Below are positions 22,044 through 45,740 of a stretch of DNA of 45,740 nucleotides, piece by piece. This DNA is from Bacteroidaceae bacterium (lineage in GTDB: Bacteria > Bacteroidota > Bacteroidia > Bacteroidales > Bacteroidaceae). A program made the translations under genes and the position numbers. Within the stretch, counting starts at the first letter, position 1, and each line of letters begins with the position of its first letter. The notes beneath the pieces are model-generated. The model did no database searches. It was given only the letters and a program-made list of their open reading frames with translations, and was not told the origin of the DNA. The stretch is from positions 1-45,740 of the forward strand of contig JAFQVS010000081.1 in the NCBI GenBank assembly GCA_017407905.1, read 5' to 3'.

Positions 22044-22069
22044 TTATAAGAAATTTAAAATGTTTCTTA
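22044..22069. repeat. possible relic end of a second foldback element
   Basis: AAATTTAAAATGTTTCTTA-like sequence immediately before element A resembles that element's own right end (AAATTTAAACAGTTTCTTA). It may be the leftover of an adjoining copy. The remaining part of the 21610-22066 gap is AT-rich and shows no gene or clear promoter. Confidence 0.35.
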
Positions 22070-22264
22070 GAAGCTGTTTAAATTTATATCGCCAAGTTTT
22101 TATAGGGCAAAAATCGGATGCTTACTTCTTTTTTAAGGGCGCATAGCGGGCTATGTAACTGCAAAAAAGATGAAAACAGACATTTTTGAATATAAAAAAC
22201 GGCGAAACAAACAAAACTCGCTTCTATAAGATTTTTTTTTTTTAGAAATTTAAACAGTTTCTTA
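22067..22264. mobile_element. foldback MITE-like element, copy A
   Basis: A 198-base element bounded by TTA on both sides, with terminal inverted repeats GAAGCTGTTTAAATTT (left) and its near-complement ending CAGTTTC (right). It carries the internal hairpin CATAG-CGGG-CTATG at 22142-22155. The right-hand TTA (22262-22264) is the stop codon of ligase paralogue 2. It is in the same orientation as copy D. No ORF is inside, so it is non-autonomous. Confidence 0.75.
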
Positions 22265-23935
22265 TTTATACATAAATCTTTTTATGCTTAATTTGGGTGT
22301 CTTTTCAAAGGGTTCTTTCATTATTTCGCAGGCTGTAATTTTGCTGTACGAGGGTAGCTTGCTGTTGAGCGAGAGCACATTTTTCTCTATCTCTTTTTTT
22401 AGCTCGTCGGTGCTTATATTGGCTTCGGCTGCGGCGTCGTTGTTGGGCACCACAAGCGCCACAATGCCGTGCTTACGCCCCACTATTAGAGACTCTTGAA
22501 CGTAGGGCAGCTGATTTACAAGCTCTTCAATTTCCTCGGGGTAGATATTCTGTCCGTTGGCGGTGAGAATCATATTCTTGCAACGTCCGCGGATGACGAC
22601 ATTCTCTTTCTTGTCCATTGTACCCATATCTCCTGTTCGGAACCATCCGTCGGGGGTAAAAGCGGCCTTTGTTGCTGCTTCGTTCTTATAGTAACCGGTT
22701 GTTACGGCGTCGCCCTTGAGCAGTATCTCGCCGGGAACCTCGGCGGGATTCTCCGAGTCGATGCGTACGTCAACCGACGGATGGGCAACGGCTCCGCAAG
22801 TGTGGGGGATAAAATCCTGCCAGCGTGTATATGTTACAAGCGGGGCACACTCGGTCATTCCGTAGCCTACGACGTAGGGGAATTTTATCTTCTGCATCAC
22901 ACTCTCGACCTCTTTGTTTATGGCTGCACCGCCAATGAGCAATCCTCCCTGCTCGATGTTTCCTCCAAAGACGTCGAGCAATTTTGCGCGCACCTTATTT
23001 AATATAAGGCTGCGCACTCCGGGAATTGCGAGTATTATGCGCATCGAGGTTGTATCGAGCATCGGCATTACTTTCAGGCGGAAGATTTTCTCGACCAACA
23101 GGGGCACGGTAAGGAACATAAAGGGCTTAACCTCGGAGAGGGCTTTCAAAAGGCGTGCGGGAACGGGTTTTTCGGTGTAGATGTATATGTGGCAACCTTT
23201 CGAGAATGGGAAGATAAAGTCGAATGCCTGTCCGAATATATGCGCCAGAGGCAATATCGACAATATTGTGTATCCTTGACGGGCGTACATATGCGAGCGG
23301 GCATATTCGAGATTGGCCGATATTGCGCGCGCGGGCAGTATCACGCCTTTGGGCGAGCTGCTTGTTCCCGAGGTGTAGCTTATTATCGAGACTGCATCCA
23401 AATTATTTTTTGAGTAATCTATGTGCTTGGGCGCAACGCCATTGGGGTAACGTGTCTTGAAGGCCTTGTCAGCAAGCTCTATAATATCGGCTATTGTGCC
23501 TTTGCACTCGGCAAAGGGTTCTATTCTTGCAATGTTTACAATTCCGCGGAAATTTTCTATTTCGTCGAATTGGGGAAGTACTTTGTCGCGCTTTAATCCA
23601 TTGAGGATTGGAGTGTCCGACAGCAACATACGGCTGTCCGAGAGTTTTGTGAGGTCTAACACATTTTGGGGCAGAAAATCGGGCAACAAAGGCACTGCTA
23701 CGGCGTCGTATGTTACGATGGCAAAATAGGCCACACACCACTCGGCCGAGTTGCGCGCGCAGAGAGCTATCTTCTCGCCTTTGGCAATGCCGCATTTCTC
23801 GAACAGGATGTGATACCTCTCGATGTATGATGCTACGTCGCCGTAGGTCAGAGTGTTTGCGCCGTAGTTTGTAAGAGCCGGCGCTGTCCAATTTTCTATA
23901 ATGGACTCACTTATGTACGATAAAAAGTGCTTCAT
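22262..23935 (-). CDS. AMP-dependent acyl-CoA synthetase/ligase, paralogue 2
   Basis: The 557 residues are collinear with paralogues 1 and 3 and share every ANL motif: 'SYTSGTSSSPKGVIL' (near 187), 'GYGMTECAPLVTY', 'GWFRTGDMG', 'RGRCKNMILTANGQNIYPEE' and the final Lys motif 'FEKTPKLSIKRFMY'. All these residues support an active adenylating enzyme of the acyl-CoA ligase type. It starts 28 bases after the stop of paralogue 3, so the two are probably co-transcribed. Its stop codon coincides with the end of foldback element A. The substrate is unknown; divergence from the siblings lies mainly in the N-terminal half. Confidence 0.9.
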   Translation of the reverse strand: MKHFLSYISESIIENWTAPALTNYGANTLTYGDVASYIERYHILFEKCGIAKGEKIALCARNSAEWCVAYFAIVTYDAVAVPLLPDFLPQNVLDLTKLSDSRMLLSDTPILNGLKRDKVLPQFDEIENFRGIVNIARIEPFAECKGTIADIIELADKAFKTRYPNGVAPKHIDYSKNNLDAVSIISYTSGTSSSPKGVILPARAISANLEYARSHMYARQGYTILSILPLAHIFGQAFDFIFPFSKGCHIYIYTEKPVPARLLKALSEVKPFMFLTVPLLVEKIFRLKVMPMLDTTSMRIILAIPGVRSLILNKVRAKLLDVFGGNIEQGGLLIGGAAINKEVESVMQKIKFPYVVGYGMTECAPLVTYTRWQDFIPHTCGAVAHPSVDVRIDSENPAEVPGEILLKGDAVTTGYYKNEAATKAAFTPDGWFRTGDMGTMDKKENVVIRGRCKNMILTANGQNIYPEEIEELVNQLPYVQESLIVGRKHGIVALVVPNNDAAAEANISTDELKKEIEKNVLSLNSKLPSYSKITACEIMKEPFEKTPKLSIKRFMYK

Positions 23936-23963
23936 CTGCTTTTGGAATCTTTCCTAAGGTTTT

Positions 23964-25643
23964 TTATTGATACATAAATCTTTTTATACTCAGTTTGGGA
24001 GTTTTCTCGAAGGGCTCGTCGCGCAGCTCACACTTTGCGATGCGGCTGTACAATGGCAATTGCTCGTTGATTGCGAAAATAGCCTCTTCTATCTGCTTCT
24101 TAAGCTCTTCACCGGCAAGTGCTTGCTCTTTTGCTGCATCCTTATTAACAACGACAAGGGCCACAAGGCCGTGCTTACGTCCTACAATCAATGCCTCTTG
24201 AACCAATGGCAGGCTGTTGATAATCTCCTCAATCTCCTCGGGGTAGATATTCTGTCCGTTGGCGGTGAGAATCATATTTTTGCAGCGTCCGCGGATAATT
24301 ACATACTCGCCGGCGTCCATTGTGCCCATATCTCCTGTCTTGAACCAGCCATCCTCGGTAAAGGCAGCCTTTGTAGCCTCGGGATTTTTGTAGTATCCGG
24401 CTGTTACGTGCGTGCCACGCACTTGAATCTCGCCGGGAATCTCGGCGGGGCTCGACGAGTCGATGCGCACCTCAATGTCGGGGCGGATGATTCCTGCATT
24501 ATTTTTAAGCGCAGGGTGGTTCCAACCTTTATAGCTTATGAGCGGGCCACACTCGGTCATTCCATAGCCTACGGCATAAGGGATTTTCACGCGGCGCATA
24601 ATATCGTCAACATCTTTGCTTATCGCTGCGCCACCAATAAAGAATCCCGAAATGTGCAGATTGCCACCAAAAGCATCGAGCACTGTCTTTCTAATTTTTT
24701 TATAAATAAGGTTGCGCACACCCGGAATTGCTGTCAGGAAGCGCATTGCAGGCTTACGCAGCACGGGAATAACCTTTGCACGGAAAATCTTCTCGATAAG
24801 CAGGGGGACGGTGAGGAAAAGGAAAGGCTTAACCTCGGCCAGAGCCTTCAGCAGCAGGGCCGGAACGGGCTTTGCACTGAAAATGTGAATGTGGCAACCC
24901 TTCGAGAACATAAACAAAAAGTCGAGCGAGAGGCCAAAAATATGGGCCAAAGGAAGAATGGAGAATGTGTTTCCGTTGGGCACAGTGGGCACATAGTCGC
25001 GCGCGAATCTTATATTTCCCGAGAGGGATTTTGCCTGAAGCATCACGCCTTTGGGAGCACTGCTTGTACCCGACGTGTAGCTGATGAGTGCAAGGTCGTC
25101 GAGCGCCTCACTGCCTCGGCTGTAATCGACGCACTCGGGCGTTAATCCATTGGGATAGCGAGCCGCAAATGTATCCTCGACATATTTTCCTATGCCCTGA
25201 AGGCCTGCGCCGTCGAACTCAATTTTTCCATTTACAAAATTTATAATTCCGCAGAAATCCTTTACATCCTTAAATTGCTCGAAAATGCCGTTGCGGGCAA
25301 AACTGCTTGCAACGCCTTTATCGACAAGCAGCAATCGACTGTCCGACAATTTAGTAAGGTCGGCCAAATTCTGCGGCAGAAAATCGGCAAGCAGAGGCAC
25401 CGCCACTGCATCATAAGTAACGATTCCCAAAAAAGTGATGCACCACTCGGCCGAGTTTTTTGCACTAATGGCCACCTTATCGCCCTTCTTTATTCCGCAT
25501 TTCTCGAAAAGTATGTGCATCTTCTCGACACCCTCGGCTATCTGTCCATAGGTATAAGTATTGGCACCATAATTTGTAATTGCCGGCTTGTCCCAATTGG
25601 ATTTTATAGCCTCGGTGATGTGTGTCAAATAGTGTATCAACAT
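23964..25643 (-). CDS. AMP-dependent acyl-CoA synthetase/ligase, paralogue 3
   Basis: The 559 residues form the first gene, in transcription order, of the three-paralogue cluster. The ANL motifs are intact: 'SYTSGTSSAPKGVML', 'GYGMTECGPLISY', 'GWFKTGDMG', 'RGRCKNMILTANGQNIYPEE' and 'FEKTPKLSIKRFMY'. The acceptor region 'SILPLAHIFGLSLDFLFMFSKGCH' is hydrophobic and suits a membrane-associated fatty-acid ligase. Divergent transcription separates it from the oxaloacetate-decarboxylase-like gene across 456 bases containing repeated ACAGTG sites. Its own promoter was not clear. Confidence 0.9.
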   Translation of the reverse strand: MLIHYLTHITEAIKSNWDKPAITNYGANTYTYGQIAEGVEKMHILFEKCGIKKGDKVAISAKNSAEWCITFLGIVTYDAVAVPLLADFLPQNLADLTKLSDSRLLLVDKGVASSFARNGIFEQFKDVKDFCGIINFVNGKIEFDGAGLQGIGKYVEDTFAARYPNGLTPECVDYSRGSEALDDLALISYTSGTSSAPKGVMLQAKSLSGNIRFARDYVPTVPNGNTFSILPLAHIFGLSLDFLFMFSKGCHIHIFSAKPVPALLLKALAEVKPFLFLTVPLLIEKIFRAKVIPVLRKPAMRFLTAIPGVRNLIYKKIRKTVLDAFGGNLHISGFFIGGAAISKDVDDIMRRVKIPYAVGYGMTECGPLISYKGWNHPALKNNAGIIRPDIEVRIDSSSPAEIPGEIQVRGTHVTAGYYKNPEATKAAFTEDGWFKTGDMGTMDAGEYVIIRGRCKNMILTANGQNIYPEEIEEIINSLPLVQEALIVGRKHGLVALVVVNKDAAKEQALAGEELKKQIEEAIFAINEQLPLYSRIAKCELRDEPFEKTPKLSIKRFMYQ

Positions 25644-25787
25644 AATAATAGTTTTTTTGGGGGATTATTGATTGTTTTTGATTGTTATACTCGCGGTAAA
25701 TTTTAGGTTATCAGCCGAGGCTGTTTATGTAAATTATGTGCAAAAATGAGGTTTATTTTTCAATTTTCCGATTTTAGGCGATATTAA

Positions 25788-25826
25788 CACTGTTACAGTG
25801 GTAAAAATCTTTATACAGTGGTAAAA
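25788..25826. promoter_or_regulatory. cluster of ACAGTG half-sites in the divergent intergenic region
   Basis: CACTGT-T-ACAGTG (25788-25800) is a perfect inverted repeat, and TACAGTGGTAAAA is repeated at 25794-25806 and 25814-25826, exactly 20 bases apart. Three half-sites on one DNA face suggest binding of a dimeric regulator for one or both divergent genes. Confidence 0.4.
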
Positions 25827-26022
25827 TATTGTATTTTGGGGTGAATTTAGGAGTATAATAAGGCGAAAAAGCACCTTTTAATCGGCAAAATTCGCACGTC
25901 GATAGAAAAACTCGGAGCTTTTTGAGACAAAGAAAAAGTAACTGTGAAAAGGGGCGAAAAAAGGTAATTTTGGAGAGAAAATAAAAAAAGCTCGAAAAGT
26001 TATGAAAATTAAATAATACGTG

Positions 26023-26030
26023 TAACTTTG
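26023..26030 (+). promoter_or_regulatory. -7 element for the carboxyltransferase-domain gene
   Basis: TAACTTTG on the plus strand lies 70 bases before the ATG, with a TTATG-like -33 at 26000-26004 and an 18-base spacer. It is the most plausible promoter here. Confidence 0.5.
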
Positions 26031-26099
26031 CCCAAAAGAACTAATATGAATTATGGCACAGAGGCACACCACCCCGTGCTAATTTAAAAATTTCAGACT

Positions 26100-27875
26100 A
26101 TGGAAAGAGAGATAAAATTCAGTTTGGTTTATCGTGATATGTTTCAGTCGTCGGGTAAGTTTCAGCCGCTAGCCGAGCAGTTGGAAAAGATAGCACCCGT
26201 CATTGTCGAGATGGGCTGTTTCGCACGTGTCGAGACTAACGGTGGAGCCTTTGAGCAGGTTAATTTAATGGCCGGCGAAAATCCCAACAAGGCTGTACGC
26301 AGTTTCACAAAGGCGTTCAATGAGGCGGGCATTCAGACACATATGCTCGACCGCGCACTGAACGCTCTGAGAATGTTCCCCGTTCCGGCCGACGTACGCC
26401 GCCTTATGTACAAGGTAAAAAAGGCGCAAGGAACCGACATTACACGTATCTTCTGCGGACTGAACGACGTACGCAACATTATACCCTCAATAAAATATGC
26501 TCTTGAAGCGGGAATGATTCCTCAGGCTACATTGTGTATTACCTCTTCGCCCGTGCACACGGTCGAGTATTACAGCAATATGGCCGACGAGCTTATCGCA
26601 GCCGGTGCCGCCGAAATTTGCTTGAAGGATATGGCAGGAATAGGCCGCCCCGACTTTTTGGGCCGCCTCACAAAGAGCATAAAGGAGAAGCACCCATCTA
26701 TCATCATACAGTATCACGGACACAGCGGTCCCGGCCTCTCGATGGCCTCTATAATAGAGGTGTGCAAGAATGGTTGCGACATTATCGACACGGCCATCGA
26801 GCCTCTGTCGTGGGGAAAGGTTCACCCCGATATTATCAGCGTTCAGGCAATGCTCAAGGATGCAGGATTTAAGGTACCCGAGATAAATATGAACGCCTAT
26901 ATGAAGGCTCGCAGCCTGACACAGCAATTCATAGACGAATGGATGGGCTACTTTATGGACAACAACAATAAACTGATGAGCTCGTTGCTGCTGACAAGCG
27001 GCCTTCCCGGAGGAATGATGGGCTCAATGATGTCCGACCTTGCCGGCGTCCACAAAGGCATCAACGGCATTCTTGCCTCAAAAGGAAAGCCCACATACAC
27101 GCTCGACGAGCTTATGGTCGAGCTGTTCAATGAGGTTGCTTACGTGTGGCCGCGCGTGGGTTATCCCCCACTCGTTACCCCATTCAGCCAATATGTCAAG
27201 AATATAGCTCTTATGAATCTGCTGAGCAACGCACAGGACGAGCCGCGCTTCAGCCGAATGGACGAGAGTATGTGGGGAATGATTTTAGGCAAGAGCGGCA
27301 AGCTGCCCGGCGAGCTTGCTCCCGAGATTATAGCCCTTGCCAAAGAAAAAGGTTACGAATTTACCACCGACGACCCGCAGAGTTTCTACCCCGACGCCCT
27401 CGACAAATACCGCAAAGAGATGCAAGAGCTTGGCTGGGAGACGGGCGAGGACGACGAAGAGCTGTTCGAGTTTGCAATGCACGACCGTCAGTACCGCGAC
27501 TTTAGAAGCGGCGTTGCCAAAGAGCGTTTCCTTGCCGACATTGAAAAGGCCAAAGAGGCACAATTGGCCAAGCAAGGCGTCAGCGCAGAAGAGATTCTTG
27601 CCATCAAGCACGCAAAGGCCGACCCCATCGTAGCTCCCGTCAAAGGACAGCTGCTGTGGGAGGTATCGACAGAGGGCGAGTCTCTGCCACCCGCAATAGG
27701 CAAGCGTTTCGCCGCCGATGAGGAATTTTGCACCATTATCACCTCGTGGGGCGAGCTTCAACCCGTTGCGACAGGCCTCGGCGGGCGCGTTGTAGAGGTT
27801 TGCGCAAAGCAGGGCGCACACGTTAACCGCGGCGATATTATCGCCTACGTTCAGCGCGACGAGTTGTTCAACTAA
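26100..27875 (+). CDS. oxaloacetate decarboxylase alpha/pyruvate carboxylase subunit B-like protein without biotinyl lysine
   Basis: The 591 residues begin with the carboxyltransferase TIM barrel: 'SLVYRDMFQSSGK' (in place of TLRDGxQS), the catalytic Lys in 'EICLKDMAGIG' (near 178) and the metal-binding 'YHGHSGPG' (near 205). Next come the conserved 'MMGSMMSDL' and 'YPPLVTPFSQYVKN' of the post-barrel region. Enzymes of this family move carboxyl groups to or from carboxybiotin. The C-terminal biotinyl-like domain (about 510-588) keeps the flanking pattern ('APVKGQLLWEV', 'GGRVVEVCAKQGAHVNRGDII') but reads 'TIITSWGELQPV' where EAMKM should be. The domain cannot be biotinylated and must use a separate carrier or another chemistry. 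No beta or gamma subunits are nearby. Confidence 0.85.
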   Translation: MEREIKFSLVYRDMFQSSGKFQPLAEQLEKIAPVIVEMGCFARVETNGGAFEQVNLMAGENPNKAVRSFTKAFNEAGIQTHMLDRALNALRMFPVPADVRRLMYKVKKAQGTDITRIFCGLNDVRNIIPSIKYALEAGMIPQATLCITSSPVHTVEYYSNMADELIAAGAAEICLKDMAGIGRPDFLGRLTKSIKEKHPSIIIQYHGHSGPGLSMASIIEVCKNGCDIIDTAIEPLSWGKVHPDIISVQAMLKDAGFKVPEINMNAYMKARSLTQQFIDEWMGYFMDNNNKLMSSLLLTSGLPGGMMGSMMSDLAGVHKGINGILASKGKPTYTLDELMVELFNEVAYVWPRVGYPPLVTPFSQYVKNIALMNLLSNAQDEPRFSRMDESMWGMILGKSGKLPGELAPEIIALAKEKGYEFTTDDPQSFYPDALDKYRKEMQELGWETGEDDEELFEFAMHDRQYRDFRSGVAKERFLADIEKAKEAQLAKQGVSAEEILAIKHAKADPIVAPVKGQLLWEVSTEGESLPPAIGKRFAADEEFCTIITSWGELQPVATGLGGRVVEVCAKQGAHVNRGDIIAYVQRDELFN

Positions 27876-27882
27876 CAGCATA

Positions 27883-27943
27883 CGACAGATACATTCGGTG
27901 GGATAAACTTATGAAAAGTTTATCCCACCGAATGTATCTGTCG
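27883..27943. terminator. very strong terminator, perfect 28-bp stem
   Basis: 27883-27910 is exactly complementary to 27916-27943 around the loop ATGAA, followed by a 9-A run (T-run for the minus-strand genes). It lies between convergent genes. Its length and perfection exceed the other terminators here. Confidence 0.9.
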
Positions 27944-27955
27944 CAAAAAAAAAGG

Positions 27956-28405
27956 TTATAACACCGAGAGTGCCGCCTCGACGTCGGACAGCGGCGGAAG
28001 ATACCCTTCGGAGCAATCATAAATAAGATGATTCGCGTATCCCTTATAGGGGTCGGTAAGATGGTGGCCGAGCTTAGCAAAATGATAAGCCTCGACGACG
28101 AGCCTGCTGCGATGCGTGCCTCCGTCGCAATGCACAAGAACACGCCCCTCGGACGCCTCGTAGCTGCGCAGCACGGCAACAGCCTCAAGAACATTGCCCC
28201 ACCCAATGTCGTCAACCTCCTCGGCAAGCGGAAAATGATAATAGGCAATATCTTTCTGCATTATGGCATCGGCTACTGCGCTGTTTCTCTTTTGCGACAC
28301 GTTGACCACCGCAATAATATCGGGCGTGAATATCCACTTATTGGCAACGTCGCATACGTTGGGATAGGGACGCACGGTTATCTTCGCAAATGTATAATGC
28401 TTCAT
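27956..28405 (-). CDS. CX5R (dual-specificity/tyrosine-type) phosphatase-like protein
   Basis: The 149 residues, from the ATG at 28403-28405, contain the cysteine-phosphatase signature 'VLVHCDGGTHRSRLV' (Cys near 102, Arg six residues later). An upstream acidic segment 'PLAEEVDDIGW' may provide the general-acid Asp. Such enzymes dephosphorylate phosphotyrosine, phosphoserine or small phosphorylated molecules. An open frame extends back to 28582 but would overlap the next gene, so the internal ATG is preferred. It is probably co-transcribed with the M15-like gene 28 bases upstream. Confidence 0.75.
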   Translation of the reverse strand: MKHYTFAKITVRPYPNVCDVANKWIFTPDIIAVVNVSQKRNSAVADAIMQKDIAYYHFPLAEEVDDIGWGNVLEAVAVLRSYEASEGRVLVHCDGGTHRSRLVVEAYHFAKLGHHLTDPYKGYANHLIYDCSEGYLPPLSDVEAALSVL

Positions 28406-28433
28406 TCTGCGGATGCCTACACAAATAGATGCT

Positions 28434-29309
28434 CTACTCTTTTGGGAATGTGCGTGCCGTAATGTGGAAACAGGCCTGTTTTTTCTCGTGCTTGATGTAG
28501 CAACAGCCTTGTACCTTAAGGTCGCGCAGAACCTCGGCAAGAACGTCTTTATAGACGCCCGATTTTGGAATCTCCTCGCCATACTCCGAGAAGAAACGCT
28601 TGTAGGTAATGTCGATGGTTGTTCCGAAGCAGTGAGCCGAGTTTTTCGATGAGTTTACATTGTTGCGGCCCAAGCGCTTAACGTCGCTTTGTGTGCGCAG
28701 CACCGAGCTTACTATAATTTTATGCGGGGGCAGATGTTTCATCACCAAAGAATCCTGGAAATTCTCGCCGATGCGTTTAAGAAGCGCCGCGGCCTCGGGC
28801 ACAAGAAAGGGTATCGAGTGTGTGAGTTTATCGACTATGTAGGCGCTTGAATCGTTAATTTCGATGAGCTTGCGGGTGGCCTTGTGTACCGACTCGCGAT
28901 TTTCGAGGGGGCCGATGCCTATCTTGCGGGCGGCAGCAAGATGTGTGTCGTTAAGGTCGTTGAAATATTTTCTTATGTTTGCACCGCGCACCTTATGCTT
29001 GACCTCGGGGCGCTGCACGCGCGGAACGTAAGAAAAGGCGTATGGCGGGCGCTCTTCGACGGTCTCGGGTTCTTGCCCGGACTCGCCATCGCAGCTGCGA
29101 TAGGCAAAAATTATTAGCAGCAAAAGCGCAATGGCGGCAAGCGTGCCCCACAGCCATTTTCCGTCAATGCTGCCCACGCGCGGCACAGGAAGGCATTTTA
29201 TCAGCCTCAGAGTGTCGCGAAAAAGTCGTTGCAGGGCTATCCACAGTAGTTTAAAATCGTCTTTCAGGTCGCGCAGCGCCTCGTCCTTGTTATCGTCAGT
29301 ATTGCACAT
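28434..29309 (-). CDS. membrane-anchored DUF5715/M15-like peptidase
   Basis: In the 291 residues, an N-terminal cytoplasmic stretch of about 50 precedes one membrane helix ('WLWGTLAAIALLLLIIFAY', about 53-71) and a periplasmic domain. That domain has the M15-type zinc pattern: 'SAHCFGTTIDITY' (SxHxxGxxxD, near 223) and 'ACFHITAR' (near 281), where the later His is the expected third ligand. M15 enzymes cut D-Ala-containing peptidoglycan stems. The match to the Bacteroidetes family DUF5715 is good, but activity is inferred. The preceding gap 29310-29538 carries its promoter. Confidence 0.75.
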   Translation of the reverse strand: MCNTDDNKDEALRDLKDDFKLLWIALQRLFRDTLRLIKCLPVPRVGSIDGKWLWGTLAAIALLLLIIFAYRSCDGESGQEPETVEERPPYAFSYVPRVQRPEVKHKVRGANIRKYFNDLNDTHLAAARKIGIGPLENRESVHKATRKLIEINDSSAYIVDKLTHSIPFLVPEAAALLKRIGENFQDSLVMKHLPPHKIIVSSVLRTQSDVKRLGRNNVNSSKNSAHCFGTTIDITYKRFFSEYGEEIPKSGVYKDVLAEVLRDLKVQGCCYIKHEKKQACFHITARTFPKE

Positions 29310-33362: not shown

Positions 33363-33559
33363 TTAGAAGCTGTTTAAATTTCTAAAAATATTTTTTTTGT
33401 ATATTGGAAGCCGTTATTTCGTAGTTTTTTATGTTCAAAAATGGCTGTTTTCTTCTTTTTCTCGGTTACGTAGCCCGCTACGCGCCCTACAAAAAATAAT
33501 AAAACATTCTATTTTTGACCTATAAAAAACTTAACGATATAAATTTAAACAGCCTCTTA
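33363..33559. mobile_element. foldback MITE-like element, copy B
   Basis: This 197-base copy is the best preserved in the window and sits between hydE and the CHAT gene. TTA flanks both ends, with inverted ends GAAGCTGTTTAAATTT and (reverse complement) GAGGCTGTTTAAATTT. The core hairpin is at 33469-33482. It is opposite in orientation to copies A and D. Confidence 0.8.
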
Positions 33560-36734: not shown

Positions 36735-36753
36735 CCCTAATTGGCGTAAAGTG

Positions 36754-36967
36754 GGATTCGGCTCGGGATAAAAAATAATCACTTTATTCTCCGCTCGCCT
36801 TTCACTATCTTTGCGCAAAGCGCGAACATAGGATTCGGCTCGGGATAAAAAATAAATACTTTATTCTCCGCTCGCCTTTCACTATCTTTGCGCAAGCGCG
36901 AACATAGGATTCGGCTCGGAATAAAAAATAATCACTTTATTCTCCGCTCGCCTTTCACTATCTTTGC
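36754..36967 (+). repeat. tandem promoter array (2.8 units of 76-77 bp) upstream of the hydrogenase
   Basis: Units begin at 36754, 36831 and 36907 (each GGATTCGGCTCGG...). The first two are 77 and 76 bases and nearly identical; the third is cut after its -7 box. Each unit carries TTTA at -33, exactly 19 bases, and TATCTTTG at -7 (36806-36813, 36883-36890, 36959-36966), all pointing at the hydrogenase gene. Downstream of the first -7 lies the palindrome TTTGCGCAAA. The last -7 is 55 bases before the ATG. Confidence 0.85.
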
Positions 36968-37021: not shown

Positions 37022-38461
37022 ATGGCATACAACAACAATGTAATGTTTGTAAGATACCAACTTCTTGCAAGATTGGTAAAAATGTGGAAGCAAGATGAGC
37101 TTCTGGGCAACATCGACAAAATGCTTATGGAGATGTATCCCCGCAAGCGCAGTCCCAAAGGTCGTTGCTGCATCTACAAAGAGCGTGCAGTGATGAAATA
37201 CAAGACAATGGCAATGCTGGGCTTTGATATGAGCGACGAGGTTGACGAGGGCGAGCGTCTGAGCAGCTACGTACAGCGTATGCTCGACCGCGATATGCCC
37301 GACGACAAGCGCGGCATCCTCAGCGTAATGGACGAGGCCTGCTCGTCGTGCGTAAAAATCAACTACGAGATTACCCACCTGTGCCGCGGCTGCGTAGCAC
37401 GTCCTTGCTACACCAACTGCCCCAAAGACGCCATCACCTACGACCGCGAGGGTAAGGCTCATATCGACCACGAGAAGTGCATCAGCTGTGGAAAGTGCCA
37501 TCAGGCCTGCCCCTACCACGCAATTGTATATATGCCCGTTCCCTGCGAAGAGGCCTGCCCCGTAAAGGCAATCTCGAAAGACGAGTATGGCATCGAGCAC
37601 ATCGACCCCGAAAAGTGTATCTACTGCGGTAAGTGTCTGAACGCCTGCCCCTTTGGAGCAATTTTCGACCAATGTACGGTGTTCGACGTACTCAAGCGCA
37701 TAAAGGCCGGTAAAAAGGTTATTGCAATGGTTGCCCCCGCAGTGCTTGCGCAGTTCGGGAAGCCCATCGAGCAGGTTTACGGCGCATTCAAGGCGCTTGG
37801 ATTCAGCGACGTAATTGAGGTTGCCGTTGGCGCCGAGGAGACCACCCGTCGCGAGTCGGCCGAGTTTGTCGAGCGTATGGAAGAGGGCGAGCCCTTTATG
37901 ACAACAAGCTGTTGCCCCGCATATGTCAACCTTGCGCGCAAACACATCCCCGACCTTGTAAAATACGTATCGACAACAGCATCACCTATGGTATATACCT
38001 CGCAGTATGCACGCGAGAAGCACCCCGACGGCATAAACGTATTTATCGCCCCCTGCGCATCGAAAAAGGCCGAGTGCCGCGAGTACGACACCGTTGACTT
38101 TGTACTCACCTTCCGCGAGGTAGAGGCCGTGCTCGAAGGAATGGAGATAAGCATCGACGGTTGCCAGCCCTACACACCCGACGAGACAGCCGGCAAGGAT
38201 GCTCACGGATTCGCAAAGACAGGCGGCGTATTCACAGCCGTACAGAATCATCTGGACGCAAAAGACCTTCAGGGCCTTGTAATTGCCGACCTCAACAAAA
38301 AGAACATCGCCTTACTAAGGGCATACGCAAAGACAGGCAAATGCCCCGGCAAGATGGTCGAGGTAATGTCGTGTCCCGGCGGCTGTATAACAGGCCCCTG
38401 CGCCTGCACCGAGAATGGCGAGGCCAACCGCCGCTTCGACGCCGAGATTAAGAAGAAATAA
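37022..38461 (+). CDS. [FeFe]-hydrogenase, group-B-like
   Basis: The 479 residues catalyse reversible proton reduction, probably H2 release from reduced ferredoxin. The N-terminal 100 residues are followed by cysteine-rich cluster domains ('CSSCVKINYEITHLCRGC', 'CISCGKCHQACP', 'CIYCGKCLNACP', about 118-210). The H-cluster domain has L1 'TTSCCPAY' (near 295), L2 'IAPCASKKAE' (near 342) and L3 'VMSCPGGCITGP' (near 448), so all four cluster cysteines are present. Tyr after TSCCPA and Ala before PC in L2 depart from the group A pattern (TSCCPxW, MPC) and fit group B. It is monomeric-looking, with no NADH-binding partner nearby. Maturases lie across the CHAT gene. Confidence 0.92.
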   Translation: MAYNNNVMFVRYQLLARLVKMWKQDELLGNIDKMLMEMYPRKRSPKGRCCIYKERAVMKYKTMAMLGFDMSDEVDEGERLSSYVQRMLDRDMPDDKRGILSVMDEACSSCVKINYEITHLCRGCVARPCYTNCPKDAITYDREGKAHIDHEKCISCGKCHQACPYHAIVYMPVPCEEACPVKAISKDEYGIEHIDPEKCIYCGKCLNACPFGAIFDQCTVFDVLKRIKAGKKVIAMVAPAVLAQFGKPIEQVYGAFKALGFSDVIEVAVGAEETTRRESAEFVERMEEGEPFMTTSCCPAYVNLARKHIPDLVKYVSTTASPMVYTSQYAREKHPDGINVFIAPCASKKAECREYDTVDFVLTFREVEAVLEGMEISIDGCQPYTPDETAGKDAHGFAKTGGVFTAVQNHLDAKDLQGLVIADLNKKNIALLRAYAKTGKCPGKMVEVMSCPGGCITGPCACTENGEANRRFDAEIKKK

Positions 38462-38486
38462 CGCTGCTGTACAGAAGAATCACAAA

Positions 38487-38518: not shown

Positions 38519-38670
38519 ATATTTAATTAAGGTAATCAACCGACTGAATCCATCGGGGAAGTTTTTTTTGCACAGAGAGCGATTATCCTCAAAAATAAAA
38601 ATCGGGTAGCCAAAAAGTGAGCCTTTCCAATAAAAATCTCAGCCTCACAAGAATACACAAGAATAAAGGA

Positions 38671-38698
38671 TTATATTTCTTTAAACAGCCCCCTTATA
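38671..38698. repeat. possible relic of a foldback-element end
   Basis: TTTAAACAGCCCCCTTA resembles the right end of copy B (TTTAAACAGCCTCTTA). No left end or core is seen, so it could be a decayed remnant or chance. Nothing else is seen in the 38519-38698 gap. Confidence 0.3.
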
Positions 38699-38730
38699 TT
38701 TGGACAAAAAAAATTATTTATCTATCTTCG
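38699..38730 (+). promoter_or_regulatory. phoH promoter
   Basis: TTTG (38699-38702), 20 bases, then TATCTTCG (38723-38730, one mismatch to TAnnTTTG), 50 bases before the phoH ATG. Confidence 0.5.
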
Positions 38731-38780
38731 CACAAATAAACCAACAGCAAAAAGTCTCGGACATAGAGCACACACATTAA

Positions 38781-39746
38781 ATGATTGAACGACACATAAT
38801 TCTCGAAGGCATAGACCCCGCATCGTTCTACGGGGCCAATAACGTACATCTTCAGATGCTGAAAAAATTGCATCCGAAATTGCGCATCGTAGCGCGCGAC
38901 AACATAATAAAAGTAATGGGCGACGACGAGGAAATTGAGCGCTTCGACAAGGTCGTCAAGCTGCTGAGCGAGCATTGCACAAAATATAACAGCATAAACG
39001 AAGAGGCCATCATAGACGCAGTCAACGGTAAGCGCACCGACAAAGGCAGCGACAGCAACGTAATTGTATATAACGTAAACGGTCGCCCCATATACCCTCG
39101 AAGCGAGAATCAGTGTCGTTTGGTAAAGGAATTTTCAACGAATGATATGCTCTTTGCCGTGGGCCCGGCAGGCTCGGGAAAGACCTACACGGCAATAGCG
39201 CTTGCCGTGCGCGCACTAAAGAACCGCGAGGTAAGAAAAATTATTCTGAGCCGTCCCGCCGTCGAGGCAGGCGAGAAGCTCGGCTTTCTGCCCGGAGATA
39301 TGCGCGAGAAGATAGACCCCTATCTGCAACCCCTCTACGACGCACTTGAGGATATGATTCCTATGGCCAAGCTCAAAGAGTATATGGATGCGAACGTCAT
39401 ACAGATAGCGCCGCTGGCCTTTATGCGCGGACGCACGCTGAACGACGCAATAGTAATCCTCGACGAGGCACAGAACACCACTACGCAACAGATAAAAATG
39501 TTCCTCACCCGAATGGGCAGCAACACAAAAATGATAATCACGGGCGACCTTACACAGATTGACCTTCCGCAGCGTCAGGCATCGGGTCTTATTCAGGCAC
39601 TGCACATCCTAAAAGAGGTTCCGGGAATAGCCTTTATCACCCTAAACAAAAAAGACATTGTACGCCACAAATTGGTAACAAGAATAGTCGAGGCCTACGA
39701 TGCCTACGACAAAGAGAAAAAAGAGAAAGAGTATAATAACAACTAA
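38781..39746 (+). CDS. PhoH-like ATPase
   Basis: The 321 residues form a cytoplasmic P-loop NTPase of the PhoH/YbeZ family, linked to RNA metabolism and ribosome maturation with the endonuclease YbeY. A KH-like N-terminal region ('[20 protein letters not shown]', near 35) precedes Walker A '[15 protein letters not shown]' (near 130) and Walker B '[12 protein letters not shown]' (near 228). The '[11 protein letters not shown]' motif follows. The length is typical. It is 13 bases upstream of purC and probably co-transcribed with purC and aroE. Confidence 0.93.
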
Positions 39747-39759
39747 AAAAGATACAACA

Positions 39760-40701
39760 ATGGCAAAAGCATTAACAAACACCGAGTTTAAATTCGAGAA
39801 GCAAAAGAGCGTTTATCACGGCAAAGTACGCGACGTTTACGACATTGACGACGACAAATTAGTGATGGTGGCAACTGACCGCATTTCGGCATTCGACGTT
39901 GTGCTGCCCAAAGGAATACCCTTTAAGGGTCAGGTACTGAACCAAATAGCAGCTACATTCCTTGATGCGACAGCCGACATTGTCCCCAATTGGAAGCTGG
40001 CCACCCCCGACCCTATGGTAACAGTAGGTCTTAAGTGCGAGGGCTTCCGTGTCGAGATGATAATACGCGGCTATCTCACCGGCAGCGCTTGGCGCGAGTA
40101 TAAGAACGGTTGCCGCAATCTGTGCGGGGTAACACTGCCCGAGGGTATGCGCGAGAATGAGAAATTCCCCACCCCCATCATCACCCCCACAACAAAAGCC
40201 GACGCCGGACACGACGAGAATATCTCGAAAGAGGAGATTATAGCACAAGGCATCGTAAGCCGCGAGGACTACGAGCAGCTCGAAAAATACACCTACGCCC
40301 TCTTCGAGCGCGGCAGCAAGATGGCAGCCGAGAAGGGACTTATCCTCGTTGACACAAAATATGAATTTGGCAAGAGAGACGGCAAAATATACCTCATTGA
40401 CGAGATTCACACGCCCGACTCCTCGCGCTACTTCTATGCCGAGGGTTACAACGAGAAATTCGAGAAGGGCGAGCCTCAGAAACAGTTGTCAAAGGAGTTT
40501 GTGCGTCAGTGGCTCATCGAGAATGGCTTTATGGGACGCGAGGGCGAGCAGGTACCCAATATGAGCGACGAGTATGTAAACAGCGTATCCGAGCGTTACA
40601 TCGAGCTCTACGAGCACATTGTGGGACAGCCCTTTGTAAAGGCCGACACCGAGAATCTGCACGAGCGCATCGAGAAGAATATCGCAGCCTATTTAGGCTA
40701 A
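39760..40701 (+). CDS. purC: phosphoribosylaminoimidazole-succinocarboxamide synthase
   Basis: PurC joins aspartate to CAIR in purine synthesis. The 313 residues, from the ATG at 39760, match the longer Bacteroidetes-type enzyme: '[20 protein letters not shown]', '[19 protein letters not shown]' and '[20 protein letters not shown]' (near 193), with 'TPDSSRYF' in the active site. An open frame begins at 39700 but overlaps phoH, so the later ATG is used. It lies 13 bases after phoH and 21 bases before aroE. Confidence 0.96.
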
Positions 40702-40722
40702 AAATCCAACAGCCGCAAGCCA

Positions 40723-41475
40723 ATGAAGAGAGAATTTGGAATAATAGGCTACCCTCTGCATCAATCGGCCTCACCTGCATTCTTCAACAAGAAGTTTGCA
40801 GATGAGGGCATTGACGCCTGCTATCTGCCATTCGAGATTGCCGACATTAACGAGCTTCCGAGGATTCTTGACGAGCACAAAGAGCTATGCGGATTCAACG
40901 TAACAATCCCCTACAAGCTGGATGTAATGAAATTCCTTGAGGCGATGAGCGACGAGGCAAAGGGCATTATGGCTGTGAATGTGGTAAAAGTAACACGCGA
41001 CAAGGAGGGGCGGGCGCATCTGACGGGATACAACAGCGACGTCATTGGCTTCACACGCTCGCTTGAACCGCTGACAAAAGGGCGACACACTAAGGCCCTT
41101 ATTTTGGGCACGGGGGGTGTCTCGAAAGCCGTGGCTTACTCGCTGCGCTCGTTGGGCATCGACTACATTCTTGTGTCGCGCACACAGAGTAGCGGCGCAA
41201 TAGCTTACAGCGACCTAACCCCCGAGATTATGCACACGCACACTCTTGTGGTCAATTGCACCCCATTGGGAATGGTGGGCCACGGGGTAGATAAATGCCC
41301 CGAAATTCCATACGAGCTCTTAACCGACAGGCATCTTCTGTACGATGTTGTCTATAACCCCGAAGAGACACTCTTCCTGCAAAAAGGAGCAGAGCGTGGA
41401 GCAGCCACAAAGAGCGGATACGAAATGTGGTATCTGCAAGCGCTTGCATCGTGGGAAATTTGGAACAGCATATAA
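40723..41475 (+). CDS. aroE: shikimate dehydrogenase
   Basis: AroE reduces 3-dehydroshikimate with NADPH in the aromatic amino-acid pathway. The 250 residues show the substrate site 'YPLHQSASPAFFNKKF' (near 10) and the catalytic-Lys segment 'GFNVTIPYKLDVM' (near 60). The dinucleotide loop is 'ILGTGGVSKAVAYSL' (near 127), followed by 'VNCTPLGM'. It lies 21 bases after purC. Its TAA stop (41473-41475) coincides with the first bases of foldback element C. Confidence 0.95.
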   Translation: MKREFGIIGYPLHQSASPAFFNKKFADEGIDACYLPFEIADINELPRILDEHKELCGFNVTIPYKLDVMKFLEAMSDEAKGIMAVNVVKVTRDKEGRAHLTGYNSDVIGFTRSLEPLTKGRHTKALILGTGGVSKAVAYSLRSLGIDYILVSRTQSSGAIAYSDLTPEIMHTHTLVVNCTPLGMVGHGVDKCPEIPYELLTDRHLLYDVVYNPEETLFLQKGAERGAATKSGYEMWYLQALASWEIWNSI

Positions 41476-41651
41476 GCGGCTGTTTAAATTTATAAAAAGA
41501 GTTTTACAATATTGGAGGCCGTTATTTCGTCGTTTTTATGTTCAAAAATGGCTGTTTTATTCTGTCTCTTGATTACGCATAAAGAAAGAATAAGCGCTCT
41601 ATTTTTGACCTAAAAAAAAAGTCGGCGGTGTAAATTAGGAACAGCATTTTA
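41473..41651. mobile_element. foldback MITE-like element, copy C (decayed)
   Basis: The left end TAAGCGGCTGTTTAAATTT starts at the aroE stop codon. The shared middle ('GTTCAAAAATGGCTGTTTT', then TCTATTTTTGACCT) matches copy B in order and orientation. The core hairpin is lost and the right end (41631-41651) is degraded, so this is the oldest-looking copy. It fills most of the gap before the LTA-synthase-type gene. Confidence 0.65.
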
Positions 41652-41666
41652 AACAAAAATCGACCT

Positions 41667-43655
41667 ATGAGCTCTGAAAAAGACAAAAAAGCATCAACTG
41701 CGACAATCCTATCATTGTATGCACAAATATGGCTCTACCAGCTTTTAGGGCTCGTGATTTTTGCAGTGGCGCGCGTAGTGCATCTTGTTGGCAGCGGTGC
41801 CACAGAAAGCATCGCCACTCACAGCGACAGCCTGCCGATGTTCCTATGGAACGCTTGGCGATTCGACACGCAGGCACTCACCTACATATCCCTTCCCGCA
41901 ATATTAGCATCGCTCATCGTACCGTGGATGGGCAGCAGGGCCGCAGAAAAGTGCAGTATCATTATGCGCCGATACTACGCGGTGATGCTGGCTGTGCTGG
42001 GCGCCCTTGTAACAGCCGAGTTTTTCTTTTTCGAGAATTTCGGTTGCCGCTACAATGTGGTGTTTTTCGACTTTTTCGACGAGGGGCCGTGGGGTCTGCT
42101 TCAGACAATGTGGCAGGATTATCCTTTCTTGAGAATCCTCCTTTCGATTTTTGCGCTGGGTATTTTCATCCATTTTACGGGTAGGTTTATTGCACGCATA
42201 AGGCTCGGCGCAAGGCGATATTTCGGGACGGCACAGACAATTCTCGCCACCATTATAATTGCCGCCGTAACATTTGTGTTTATGCGCGGCTCGGTTACAC
42301 GCTACACGCTTCAGGTAGAGGCCTTTATGGTATCGACCGACGAGCGGATAAACAACGCTGTGCCCAACGCCGTCTATCTGCTGAAAAAGGCTTACAAAGA
42401 GAGAGCCAACAGTTTCAAACTATACAGCGACGAGCAACTGCTTGCGCGCGAGGGATTCACAAGCATCGACGAGGCCATAAGAACGGCGGCGCTGCCTCTT
42501 GCCGGCGAGACAAACGCCCAAAAATGCGAAGCAGCGCTCTTTGCAACGGTCGAGAAAAGCGACACACTACCCCTCCCCAACGTGCTACTGATTCTGAGCG
42601 AGAGCTGGAGCAACTTCCTCACCACAATGGACAAGGGCGAGAGGCTCGACCTGCTCTGCTCGCTGCGTCAGCATCTGCAACAAGATATTCTATTGCAGAA
42701 TTTCCAATCGGTGCGCAACGGAACAATCTATTCGATAGAGACGGCAACCCTCACAATGCCTTATATGCGATTCTTCAACTCGCGCTACCGCTTCGAGGGC
42801 TTCCAAAGTTCAATAGCCCACCCCTTTAAGCAGCAAGGCTACAGCACAGCATTTATCACAGGAATGGACCCTACGTGGGAGAATGTGCAAGAGGGACTGC
42901 GCTATCAGAGCTTCGATACAATAATTGGGCGACAGGATATTATGCACAGCATCGAGGGGAGCACGACAAGCGCCATAGGTGTTTATGACGAGTTTCTTAT
43001 GCAGTATCTTTTCGAGCACCTCGACAGCGGCAGTGGCGACACTCCGCAATTTGTGGTTGCACTCACAACAACCAACCATCCGCCATTCACCTACCCCGAT
43101 AATATGCAACTGCCACCGCTGACAGAGGAGTGGTACAACTCACCCTATCTGACAGGCGACAAAGAGGTACTGCGCAAATACGGCCTCGGAGCACAATATG
43201 CCAACAGATGTATCGGCGACTTTCTGACCCGTCTGAAGGCCTCGCCCCTTGCCCAAAATACAATTGTCGTAATTACGGGCGACCATAATGTGCGCAGCAT
43301 ACTCGACTACGATAAGGTGCCGGCCGAGCAGCGCTACGCTGTGCCTCTGTACATTTATCTGCCGCAACGATACGCGCTGTCGCAAGAAGATGAAGAGAGA
43401 ATAGAGCGACGTTACGGGTCGCACTACGACCTATTATCGACCATAGCACCGCTGGCCTTGAACAACGGAGCGCGCTATCTGAATATGGGACAGAATCTCT
43501 TGGACACCACGGCCGCAGATGAGAAATTCTTCAGTTACAGCGAAAAGCAGTTGCTTGCACCCGACGGCGCAGACACCGACACACTGATGCGCAGGATGAA
43601 AGCACGCGAGCTTTTAATGGAGATTTATTATCAACAGCATTTTCGCAATCAATAG
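41667..43655 (+). CDS. LTA synthase-type (phosphoglycerol/phosphoethanolamine) transferase
   Basis: The 662 residues have about five membrane helices in the first 230 (for example 'YQLLGLVIFAVARVVHLV', 'FLRILLSIFALGIFIHFTG') and then an extracytoplasmic sulfatase-fold domain. Metal-site elements are seen: 'LLILSESWSNF' (near 310), the nucleophile Thr in 'SVRNGTIYSIETATLTMPY' (near 353), 'VITGDHNVRS' (near 538) and 'YGSHYDLLST' (near 583). In a Gram-negative without teichoic acid, such enzymes decorate envelope glycolipids or glycans with phosphoglycerol or phosphoethanolamine. The substrate cannot be read from sequence. It is monocistronic and converges with the TPR regulator gene; no terminator is obvious in 43656-43761. 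Confidence 0.88.
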   Translation: MSSEKDKKASTATILSLYAQIWLYQLLGLVIFAVARVVHLVGSGATESIATHSDSLPMFLWNAWRFDTQALTYISLPAILASLIVPWMGSRAAEKCSIIMRRYYAVMLAVLGALVTAEFFFFENFGCRYNVVFFDFFDEGPWGLLQTMWQDYPFLRILLSIFALGIFIHFTGRFIARIRLGARRYFGTAQTILATIIIAAVTFVFMRGSVTRYTLQVEAFMVSTDERINNAVPNAVYLLKKAYKERANSFKLYSDEQLLAREGFTSIDEAIRTAALPLAGETNAQKCEAALFATVEKSDTLPLPNVLLILSESWSNFLTTMDKGERLDLLCSLRQHLQQDILLQNFQSVRNGTIYSIETATLTMPYMRFFNSRYRFEGFQSSIAHPFKQQGYSTAFITGMDPTWENVQEGLRYQSFDTIIGRQDIMHSIEGSTTSAIGVYDEFLMQYLFEHLDSGSGDTPQFVVALTTTNHPPFTYPDNMQLPPLTEEWYNSPYLTGDKEVLRKYGLGAQYANRCIGDFLTRLKASPLAQNTIVVITGDHNVRSILDYDKVPAEQRYAVPLYIYLPQRYALSQEDEERIERRYGSHYDLLSTIAPLALNNGARYLNMGQNLLDTTAADEKFFSYSEKQLLAPDGADTDTLMRRMKARELLMEIYYQQHFRNQ

Positions 43656-43761
43656 GCCGAATAGATTTTAGCCTCTTTATCATTAGGCGAATGATTTATT
43701 TGCACCGACTAAGCAGTGCTACACAAAAGAAAATCGGCAAGCGTTTTTTGGGCAAATGCCA

Positions 43762-45456
43762 TCAACTCATTGCATCAATAAATTGTTGCTTGTGTGGGGC
43801 CTCGGAGCGCAAAATCAAACTCTTGAGGCGCGATTTTTTTGTATAGACGTTACCCACCGTATCCTGCATAAATATGCTGATGGCTTTTGACGAGAATCCT
43901 GCATAGACAAAGACAAGGAAGCGCAGCTCGGCCTCGCCCAGCTGCGGAAGCTCGCTGCGCAGAAGCCTCATTATGCCGCCGCGATAGTCGTTAACGATTG
44001 CTTCGAGGCTCTCGGCCGAGCGTTTGTCCTTCATAAAGGCCTCGATGTTCTCTCGCACCTGACGATAGATGGCATCCTTGTCCTTTTTTATCCCGTGCGT
44101 CTCGTAGAAAGTGCCGCTGAGCTCGTCGAGCATTGCAAACTGTTTTTTGAACAGCGTACCCACCTGTTTGTCCATCTCGGCGAGGCGTCGGTTGTTGGCT
44201 TCGAGCTGCAACGATATATCGGCAACCTCGGCATTTTTTGCGTAGAGCGTTTTTCCAATCTCGTCGGCAAGCTCCATATAACGCTCAATCTCGGCATTTT
44301 GGGCTGCCATTCTATTTTTTATAAAAAGCAGTATCACGACGAGAAACAGCACGGCGGCAACAAAAATTGCAACAGAGAGGCGCTTGGCCGCCGCCAGACG
44401 ATACTCGCCAAGCTCGGCCTGCGAGCGGTAAAAATCGCGCTGTGCCAACATTACGGGCTGCTGCAATGCGCTGCGCATTATTGTGTCGTGTATGTAGTGT
44501 ACATTTTCGAGAATGTCGAGTGCCTCGGAGTAGCGCCCGCTCATACGGCTTATGTCGTACATCTGAACAAGGTTGGCCAGCGTGTCGCTTATGCTGTGAG
44601 ATTTTGCCCACGCGCGACGGATGAAGCGGTCGGAGGCCTTGTAGTCGCCACTGAGCGCGTGCATATAAGCGATGGCTCTATCGACGATGAGGGTGCTGTC
44701 GCAGAGGGTGAAATATTCGCTTCCAAGCAACCAATCGGATTTTGAGGGGTAGTTTGTACGGTGGTACAGAATCAACAGATTCTCGACGGTGCTCTGGCAT
44801 ATATCTTTGTGGGAATTATCGTATGCCCACTGAAGCTCGTCGAGCAGATAGCGCTCGGCCTCGTCATATTTTTTTTGCTCCATAAGCGTCTGTGCAACGC
44901 TGACAAGTGCCTTGTGCTGCAATTGATTGGCCTCGGCCACGCGGAAATAAAGATGAGCCTTCTGATAGGCGTCGAGGGCGCGAGTATAGTCGAATGAATC
45001 GGCAAAAATATCGGCCATCGCCATATACAGGAGGCCTGCATTTGCGGGGCTCTCGATTTTTCCCATAATGTGCTCGGCACCGACGTAGTTGAGCATCGCC
45101 TTTGCGTTGTATCCGCATCGGCGGTATATTCGTCCGAGGGTGTAAAGCGAGAGAAAATGAAGCTCGGCATCATTGGACGAGGAGTAATGTATCACCACCC
45201 TTTGCATCGCCGAGTCGTTGTCTGTTGTTGCTCCGATGCCATCGAGTGCCATTGTGCGCAGCAGCGTGTAGCGTAAACGCTCCTCGCCCGCAAGCTCCGA
45301 GGCATCTTGTATCTCGGACAGCAGCGCGAGTGCGCTGTCGGGTGCCACGGCAACTATTGCTTGTGCCTCTTCGAGTTTATCGTCAATCTCGCGTGTGACA
45401 CACGAGGCTGTCAGAAGCAGCGCTACGCCGAGTATTATTATTTTCAGTAGTTTCAT
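43762..45456 (-). CDS. TPR lipoprotein with membrane helix and C-terminal LuxR-like HTH
   Basis: The 564 residues start at the ATG at 45454-45456 with a lipoprotein signal ('MKLLKIIILGVALLLTASC', Cys 19). About 320 residues of TPR helices follow, then a membrane helix ('VAIFVAAVLFLVVILLFI', about 360-378) and a coiled coil to about 440. The C-terminal region resembles a LuxR-type helix-turn-helix ('AELRFLVFVYAGFSSKAISI' and then 'TVGNVYTKKSRLKS', near 517-550). This is the layout of Bacteroidetes membrane-bound TPR regulators, in which a periplasmic sensor and a cytoplasmic DNA-binding tail share one chain. The frame stays open upstream to 45558, but the lipoprotein start and a -7 box at 45477-45484 favour the chosen ATG. 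Confidence 0.8.
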   Translation of the reverse strand: MKLLKIIILGVALLLTASCVTREIDDKLEEAQAIVAVAPDSALALLSEIQDASELAGEERLRYTLLRTMALDGIGATTDNDSAMQRVVIHYSSSNDAELHFLSLYTLGRIYRRCGYNAKAMLNYVGAEHIMGKIESPANAGLLYMAMADIFADSFDYTRALDAYQKAHLYFRVAEANQLQHKALVSVAQTLMEQKKYDEAERYLLDELQWAYDNSHKDICQSTVENLLILYHRTNYPSKSDWLLGSEYFTLCDSTLIVDRAIAYMHALSGDYKASDRFIRRAWAKSHSISDTLANLVQMYDISRMSGRYSEALDILENVHYIHDTIMRSALQQPVMLAQRDFYRSQAELGEYRLAAAKRLSVAIFVAAVLFLVVILLFIKNRMAAQNAEIERYMELADEIGKTLYAKNAEVADISLQLEANNRRLAEMDKQVGTLFKKQFAMLDELSGTFYETHGIKKDKDAIYRQVRENIEAFMKDKRSAESLEAIVNDYRGGIMRLLRSELPQLGEAELRFLVFVYAGFSSKAISIFMQDTVGNVYTKKSRLKSLILRSEAPHKQQFIDAMS

Positions 45457-45476
45457 TCGCTTGGGATTTTCATCCT

Positions 45477-45484
45477 CAAAATTA
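45477..45484 (-). promoter_or_regulatory. -7 element of the TPR regulator gene
   Basis: TAATTTTG on the minus strand, about 20 bases before the ATG, leaves a very short leader. The -33 is weak. Confidence 0.4.
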
Positions 45485-45599
45485 GTGCAATTTTGCGAGA
45501 ATATGACAATATTGTAAGATAAAGTACACTCTGTCCGTAATATTTCCTTTCCGCACATTTTGTATCGGTTATAAAATTGTTTACTTTTGTTTCGTAAAC

Positions 45600-45740
45600 T
45601 AAGAAGCTGTTTAAATTTATATCGTTAAGTTTTTTATAGGTCAAAAATAGGATGTTTTATTATTTTTTGTAGGGCGCGTAGCGGGCTACGTAACCGAGAA
45701 AAAGAAGAAAACAGTCATTTTTGAACATAAAAAACCACGA
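45600..45740. mobile_element. foldback MITE-like element, copy D (cut by window edge)
   Basis: It begins TAAGAAGCTGTTTAAATTT and continues as the reverse complement of copy B through the core hairpin CGTAG-CGGG-CTACG (45677-45690) to the window end. About 55 bases, including the right end, are outside. Confidence 0.75.

Follow-up and report, generated by a model that had tools for sequence, protein, structure and literature searches.

Foldback elements with IS5-type ends in a Bacteroidaceae genome, and a hairpin tip that occurs with several kinds of transposon ends

Miniature inverted-repeat transposable elements (MITEs) are usually viewed as gene-less transposons defined by their ends, and ERIC, REP/BIME and Correia elements are, like the repeats studied here, short gene-less intergenic palindromic repeats. 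The closest described systems are those of Porphyromonas gingivalis: PMC4596501 reports that the ends of MITE464/MITEPgRS, MITE239, MITE700 and BrickBuilt match those of the IS5-family insertion sequences ISPg1, ISPg3, ISPg4 and ISPg9. Here, we analyse a contig of 45,740 nucleotides from a Bacteroidaceae bacterium (assembly GCA_017407905.1, contig JAFQVS010000081.1; the whole stretch is hereafter the window), which carries four copies of a foldback element. These copies probably belong to a MITE family, i.e., non-autonomous elements moved by an IS5-type transposase. Their inner hairpin recurs in other Bacteroidaceae between unrelated ends, which suggests that a conserved strand-specific structure may be carried by exchangeable transposon ends.

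Four copies and their family in the source genome

An initial annotation of the window had proposed four foldback copies, in both orientations and one of them decayed. All four were located at the positions it gave. We call "GG strand" of any element the strand carrying the CGGG tip; it is the plus strand in copies A and D and the minus strand in B.

Copy A, 22067..22264, GG strand plus: element at 22070-22261 (192 bp)
Flanks of copy A, 22067-22069 and 22262-22264: TTA on both sides, target duplication
Hairpin tip of copy A, 22141..22157, plus strand: GCATAGCGGGCTATGTA
Copy B, 33363..33559, GG strand minus: element at 33366-33556 (191 bp)
Flanks of copy B, 33363-33365 and 33557-33559: TTA on both sides, target duplication
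Hairpin tip of copy B, 33469..33484, minus strand: GCGTAGCGGGCTACGT on that strand, position good to about two bases
Copy C, about 41473-41652, minus strand (from its likeness to copy B): decayed, hairpin tip lost, right end diverged and placed to a base or two
Copy D, 45600..45740, GG strand plus: incomplete, first 141 nt
Hairpin tip of copy D, 45675..45693, plus strand: GCGTAGCGGGCTACGT inside this stretch, position good to about two bases

Since the window spans the entire contig, copy D is truncated where that contig stops; several other contigs of the assembly likewise terminate within an element. The terminal motif GAAGCTGTTTAAATTT matches the window seven times with at most three mismatches (mean 0.75 and largest 5 in 100 shuffles). 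The TTA noted on both sides of copies A and B fits a 3-bp duplication, and the proposed foldback architecture is borne out by RNA folding well beyond shuffled sequences in copies A (z -6.1) and B (z -7.1), and weakly in C (z -2.1; 7 of 200 shuffles were equally good).

Copies A, B, C and D are members of a real repeat family. Searching the genome with the element and its ends, as the initial annotation had proposed, revealed that the family is dispersed: copy B used as a blastn query matched 44 places, and the terminal motif was found 103 times with up to two mismatches (57 forward and 46 reverse matches), against 1 and 0 for the same pattern read backwards. The element is short (about 190 bp), repeated, devoid of coding capacity and bounded by 16-bp terminal inverted repeats. 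Both flanks could be read for 13 genome pairs of 150-200 bp. In 8 of them the two 3-bp flanks are the same, TTA or TAA (contigs 5, 13, 34, 47 (twice; contig 47 is the window), 63, 96 and 102), in keeping with a 3-bp target duplication.

The elements lie almost exclusively outside open reading frames (24 of the 25 own copies tested and all 42 copies in three other genomes). The right TTA of copy A doubles as the stop codon of an AMP-binding gene (22262-23935, minus strand), the second of three neighbours, and the left TAA of copy C (41473-41475) is the stop codon of a Shikimate_dh_N gene (40723-41475, plus strand; shikimate dehydrogenase-like). A third own copy at a stop codon sits on another contig. 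We considered and rejected a preference for stop codons or 3' ends: since only 3 of 25 own copies are at a stop codon and the rest are near starts or mid-intergenic, there is no general rule of this kind. The GG strand of the 42 copies runs with both neighbours in 13 cases and against both in 10, the neighbours being divergent in 9, convergent in 4 and one of them undecided in 6. The gaps between the elements and gene starts or stops vary widely. The three neighbouring AMP-binding enzyme genes (19936-25643, minus strand) are paralogous, and only the middle one has an element at its 3' end. On contigs 30 (from 7444) and 32 (from 2635) of the source genome, an element end is followed by another shared repeat that starts with GGCTCAGTAGCAAAAAGGTGTGGTCGAG.

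Insertion sequences with matching ends

The mobilising enzyme had been placed outside the window, and an insertion sequence (IS) with the same terminal repeats had been proposed as something to look for. Both expectations agree with the finding, in related bacteria, of intact IS5-family IS with near-identical ends and 3-bp duplications. An IS of this family with nearly the same ends is the likely partner, located outside the source genome. We scanned for the end motif 29 loci of the genus matching DDE_Tnp_1 (PF01609), and only one of them has an exact end adjoining a transposase (L119, genome G021; contig JAFYLO010000119.1 of Bacteroidaceae bacterium RGIG7201, from water buffalo cecum). There, TTA and the exact 16-base end are followed, after 115 bp, by a truncated IS5-type transposase frame starting at 1142. 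Locus L105 was discarded as a partner: its exact end is part of a MITE copy and the transposase lies over 1 kb away. PF13586 had no match in the 44 genomes of the genus.

From named genomes, 80 loci were fetched and 46 examined for ends. The transposase is surrounded by an inverted end pair and equal 3-bp flanks, mostly TTA or TAA, in 20 of the 46, a generous count because the end-finding script favoured equal flanks. One such element (L168) reads TAA-GAAGTTGTTTAAATTT..AAATTTAAACAGCTTC-TAA over 871 bp; its ends correspond to GAAGTTGTTTAAATTT/GAAGCTGTTTAAATTT, and those of several others to GAAACTGTTTTGAATT. These IS are 827 to 915 bp long; the likely partner, of 0.87-0.91 kb, encodes a transposase of 256-257 aa, and the five transposases tested all belong to the IS5 family (NCBIfam NF033580; DUF4096 + DDE_Tnp_1). 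Bacteroidales bacterium SW299 has an intact IS, with GAAACTGTTTTGAATT as its ends, next to a foldback element with the same kind of ends; the flanks of this IS are TAA and TGA and provide no clean duplication. An origin of the MITE by internal deletion of such an IS was rejected: by eye, their sole likeness is the end repeat. The interior of the element is not a shortened transposase gene or an IS remnant.

The dispersed repeat family, the TTA/TAA duplications and the near-matching IS5-family IS in relatives thus support the initial annotation in regarding the elements as MITE-like and non-autonomous. We infer three points: the element is moved by an IS5-type transposase, this enzyme acted in trans, and the fold described below is kept by selection and not by chance. 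Such a transposase (DUF4096 + DDE_Tnp_1, NF033580) would have been supplied by an IS now missing from the assembled genome, would recognise the terminal repeat GAAGCTGTTTAAATTT, and would insert the element at TTA or TAA, duplicating those 3 bp.

A hairpin tip shared by elements with unrelated ends

What the initial annotation said of the element is supported; a tip common to elements with other ends went unnoticed there. The foldback element of SW299 and that of the window have in common the tip TAGCGGGCTA and the layout, and hardly any other sequence. The consensus of the tip is GC[AG]TAG-CGGG-CTA[CT]GT. In the fetched loci, 73 of 91 distinct tip contexts are inside a foldback with an 18-nt inverted end; by eye, the other 18 comprise about 12 unrelated-looking contexts, often coding, and about 6 elements with worn ends. 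Across the Bacteroidaceae, these foldbacks carry at least four unrelated end groups, of six kinds, as grouped by eye:

End group: GAAGCTGTTTAAATTT-like
End group: TGTTC-type, three kinds, AGTAGGTGTTCAAAATTA, GGGTTGTTCTAAAAATTATG and GGGGTGTTCTATAAATTAG
End group: AACCCAAATCGGTCATTAGA
End group: AGTGATGGTTAAATAATAAG

In a set of 67 foldbacks of 170-210 bp that includes many near copies, 66 have a left arm of 70-79 nt on the GG strand, whatever the ends. When elements of different end groups are compared with blastn, the tip region alone aligns, and its distance from the left end is the same (about 75 nt). When tip and ends were masked, two matches at E<=0.01 remained among 12 elements, both inside end group 1. 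Two elements with different ends (L252 and L297) are 91% identical over 45 bp around the tip, a likeness that makes common descent with a change of ends plain. In one genome (G520), where elements were found by their ends, which gives a less biased view of the tip than picking by pattern, the tip is present in all 16 listed 171-bp pairs and all 3 listed 205-bp pairs. Among the elements found in this way, it is missing in L454 and L455 (end group 4, 155 bp) and in L461, and a single loop or stem base is changed in L460, L463, L464 and L466. By eye, among the matches listed, no pair 0.8-2.5 kb apart that could be a partner IS was seen for end group 4 (8 genomes) or for the TGTTC-type (3 genomes).

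When an own copy was the query, matches were obtained in 31 of the 37 genomes of the genus, counting the source genome itself, and in 0 of 24 genomes from other families of the order; the SW299 element matched 20 of 201 genomes of the family, some weakly. The tip pattern SMRTAGCGGGCTAYK occurs in 34 of 121 genomes of the family, spanning 17 of 30 genera (35 matches in G520 against 0 for the control). A model of the tip region, built from this family alone and applied with strict filters, had matches in 2 of the 395 phylum genomes searched; both are among the 5 that belong to this family, and none of the 390 others matched. Plasmids had no match to an end-group-4 element. Viral contigs gave 0 matches for the end-group-4 end, 32 stretches with the 16-base end, and 1 and 0 matches for two tip patterns. 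The match is exact and lies on one viral contig (L508, IMGVR_UViG_3300029972_000137, 8658-8679).

The elements also have a fold in common, consisting of an end helix, a hairpin of about 45 bp with the conserved tip, and a small 3' hairpin. Among 31 representatives less than 85% identical, a junction forms in 29, with an additional small hairpin that lies 3' in 28 and 5' in 1, and the main hairpin has 38-52 pairs in 26 of these 29. Below the tip stem, 2x2 G/A loops recur: the GG strands contain GA/GA 25 times and their complements not once, and the energy rules that favour GA/GA do so equally for either strand. RNA energies make the GG strand the more stable one in 29 of 31 representatives, and DNA energies do so in the same number; after removal of the 15-nt core together with 12 nt to its left and right, it remains better in 24 of 31, with GA/GA at 9 to 0. 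Stem changes at the tip are compensated, the third stem pair being A-T in 23 sequences, G-C in 15 and mismatched in none. Paired cells and the covariation score exceed all 500 shuffles; no excess is seen in doubly changed pairs, for which 325 of 500 shuffles reached the same number, or in pair types (463 of 500). The 39 tip sequences were picked by a pattern that fixes the inner ten bases, so the invariance of these bases is no evidence. In two elements of one genome (L458 and L459), another tip stem and loop occupy the same place within the same flanking GGGC..AACC loop. Repair of an imperfect palindrome would mend its mismatches, so their persistence would point to selection.

At L462 (G537:C1:1927740-1928080), the small 3' hairpin is enlarged to a long separate hairpin, as if the site accepted inserts, and L451-L453 (G520) carry beside the tip an identical insert of about 34 bp that is itself a hairpin. 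The search of Rfam 15 gave no match at the gathering score in the window; in 11 related loci searched at E<=1, the best match had an E-value of 0.091 and all were below gathering.

Possible explanations and known systems

IS5-type movement in trans explains the ends, the target and the spread of the element; it does not explain the tip and fold shared across end groups. These would follow from common descent with exchange of ends together with selection on a strand-specific fold. The interior would then be a purpose-like foldback, with an end helix, a conserved tip on a hairpin of about 45 bp and a small hairpin inside the right end. Selection would maintain it on one strand, the arms would drift, and the ends would follow whichever IS moves the element. 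RNA would be the simplest strand-specific product. We tentatively propose, at somewhat less than even chances, that the elements are a mobile structured RNA family of Bacteroidaceae in which the hairpin is the lineage and the ends, of at least four unrelated kinds, are an exchangeable vehicle. That this putative mobile RNA is characterised by a strand-specific three-way fold, the CGGG tip and repeated G/A 2x2 loops is a possibility we hold with the same caution.

Several observations weigh against these interpretations. The protein of L119 matches only 2 of the 44 genomes of the genus (itself, truncated, and a decayed remnant), the partner transposase has no match in the source genome (an assembly 84% complete), and none of the IS in the 46 loci examined had GAAGCTGTTTAAATTT exactly at its two ends. 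The flanks do not match in 5 of the 13 genome pairs (contigs 13 (at 6287), 17, 37, 44 and 80). A comparison of occupied with empty sites, suggested at the outset, was run on the fetched genus loci by blasting them against each other; it identified no orthologous site and no empty site, and the 600-bp flanks of 21 own copies blasted against the other loci also gave no orthologous site. Once the tip is removed, the strand bias in the genus of the window is weak (9 of 14). Conservation within this genus is 93% on average at the tip, 93.5% at the ends and 84-87% in the arms; the tip does not surpass the ends and exceeds the arms only somewhat. As for the RNA, the promoter-like motif TANNTTTG is not enriched on the GG strand (6 GG against 10 CC among the 31 representatives), the 42 copies have no fixed orientation to their neighbours, and Rfam has no match.

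Taken alone, the copies of the window fit in every feature an ordinary MITE arising by internal deletion or filler capture, functionless, with the palindrome as a by-product and the shared tip as a trace of one element having spread recently among gut Bacteroidaceae. The likeness of L252 and L297 around the tip, despite their unlike ends, also agrees with this explanation. We nevertheless regard it as rather unlikely: the arms cannot be aligned between end groups, yet tip, left-arm length (66 of 67) and fold (28 of 31) persist, the third stem pair varies only by compensation (23 A-T and 15 G-C), and the tip stem of L458 and L459 was swapped for another of the same design. A structure acting as DNA, i.e., a cruciform or single-stranded hairpin used in replication or transposition, seems to us less probable still. 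It would accommodate a strand bias that persists with DNA energies and a GG strand without promoter-like enrichment, but a cruciform would look alike on both strands and a one-strand bias requires a strand-specific step. IS5-type movement is not known to include such a step. Alternatively, transposon ends could have spread a hairpin useful to the host, as a terminator or a signal for RNA processing or mRNA stability. The position outside open reading frames of nearly all copies and the three own copies exactly at a stop codon are what one would expect of such a signal, whereas the lack of orientation bias and the widely varying distances to starts and stops are not, and we find this explanation the least probable.

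MITEs are commonly defined by their ends; in the elements described here, it is the ends that vary, around an inner hairpin that is retained. Should this hairpin be a working RNA, then borrowed transposases would have been spreading an RNA, selfish or useful, among gut Bacteroidaceae, and the presence of copies in cultured Bacteroidaceae relatives makes this directly testable. Many of the contig breaks in assemblies of the genus are likewise explained by the element.

Other repeats were observed in the window. A gene at 4651-6174 encodes a 507-aa MORN-repeat protein, with a 69-bp repeat in the DNA. A repeat of 74-77 bp occurs three times in tandem at 36741-36967, immediately upstream of a gene resembling those of iron-only hydrogenases (37022-38461). 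Perfect inverted repeats at 27883-27943, 717-764 and 19875-19914, with arms of 28, 23 and 20 bp and loops of 0-5 nt, are perhaps terminators.

Like the family of the window, the P. gingivalis elements are Bacteroidales MITEs with IS5-family ends. They differ, when compared by description, in the ends themselves (printed as GAGACTGTTGCA, ACGTCAGTTCGA and others, versus GAAGCTGTTTAAATTT here) and in the internal tandem repeats of BrickBuilt and PgRS; the available portion of the article makes no mention of a shared hairpin tip (PMC4596501). No description of the tip or the ends was found in the literature covered, which includes the available part of PMC10969869 and has subscription journals and preprints mostly outside its scope. 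The IS5-family IS (NF033580) resemble the MITE in ends that agree within one or two bases and in their TTA/TAA duplications; they differ in being 0.87-0.91 kb long with a transposase, and the resemblance in sequence concerns the ends alone. ERIC, REP/BIME and Correia elements are described with one set of ends each, whereas the tip of the family described here comes with several kinds of ends.

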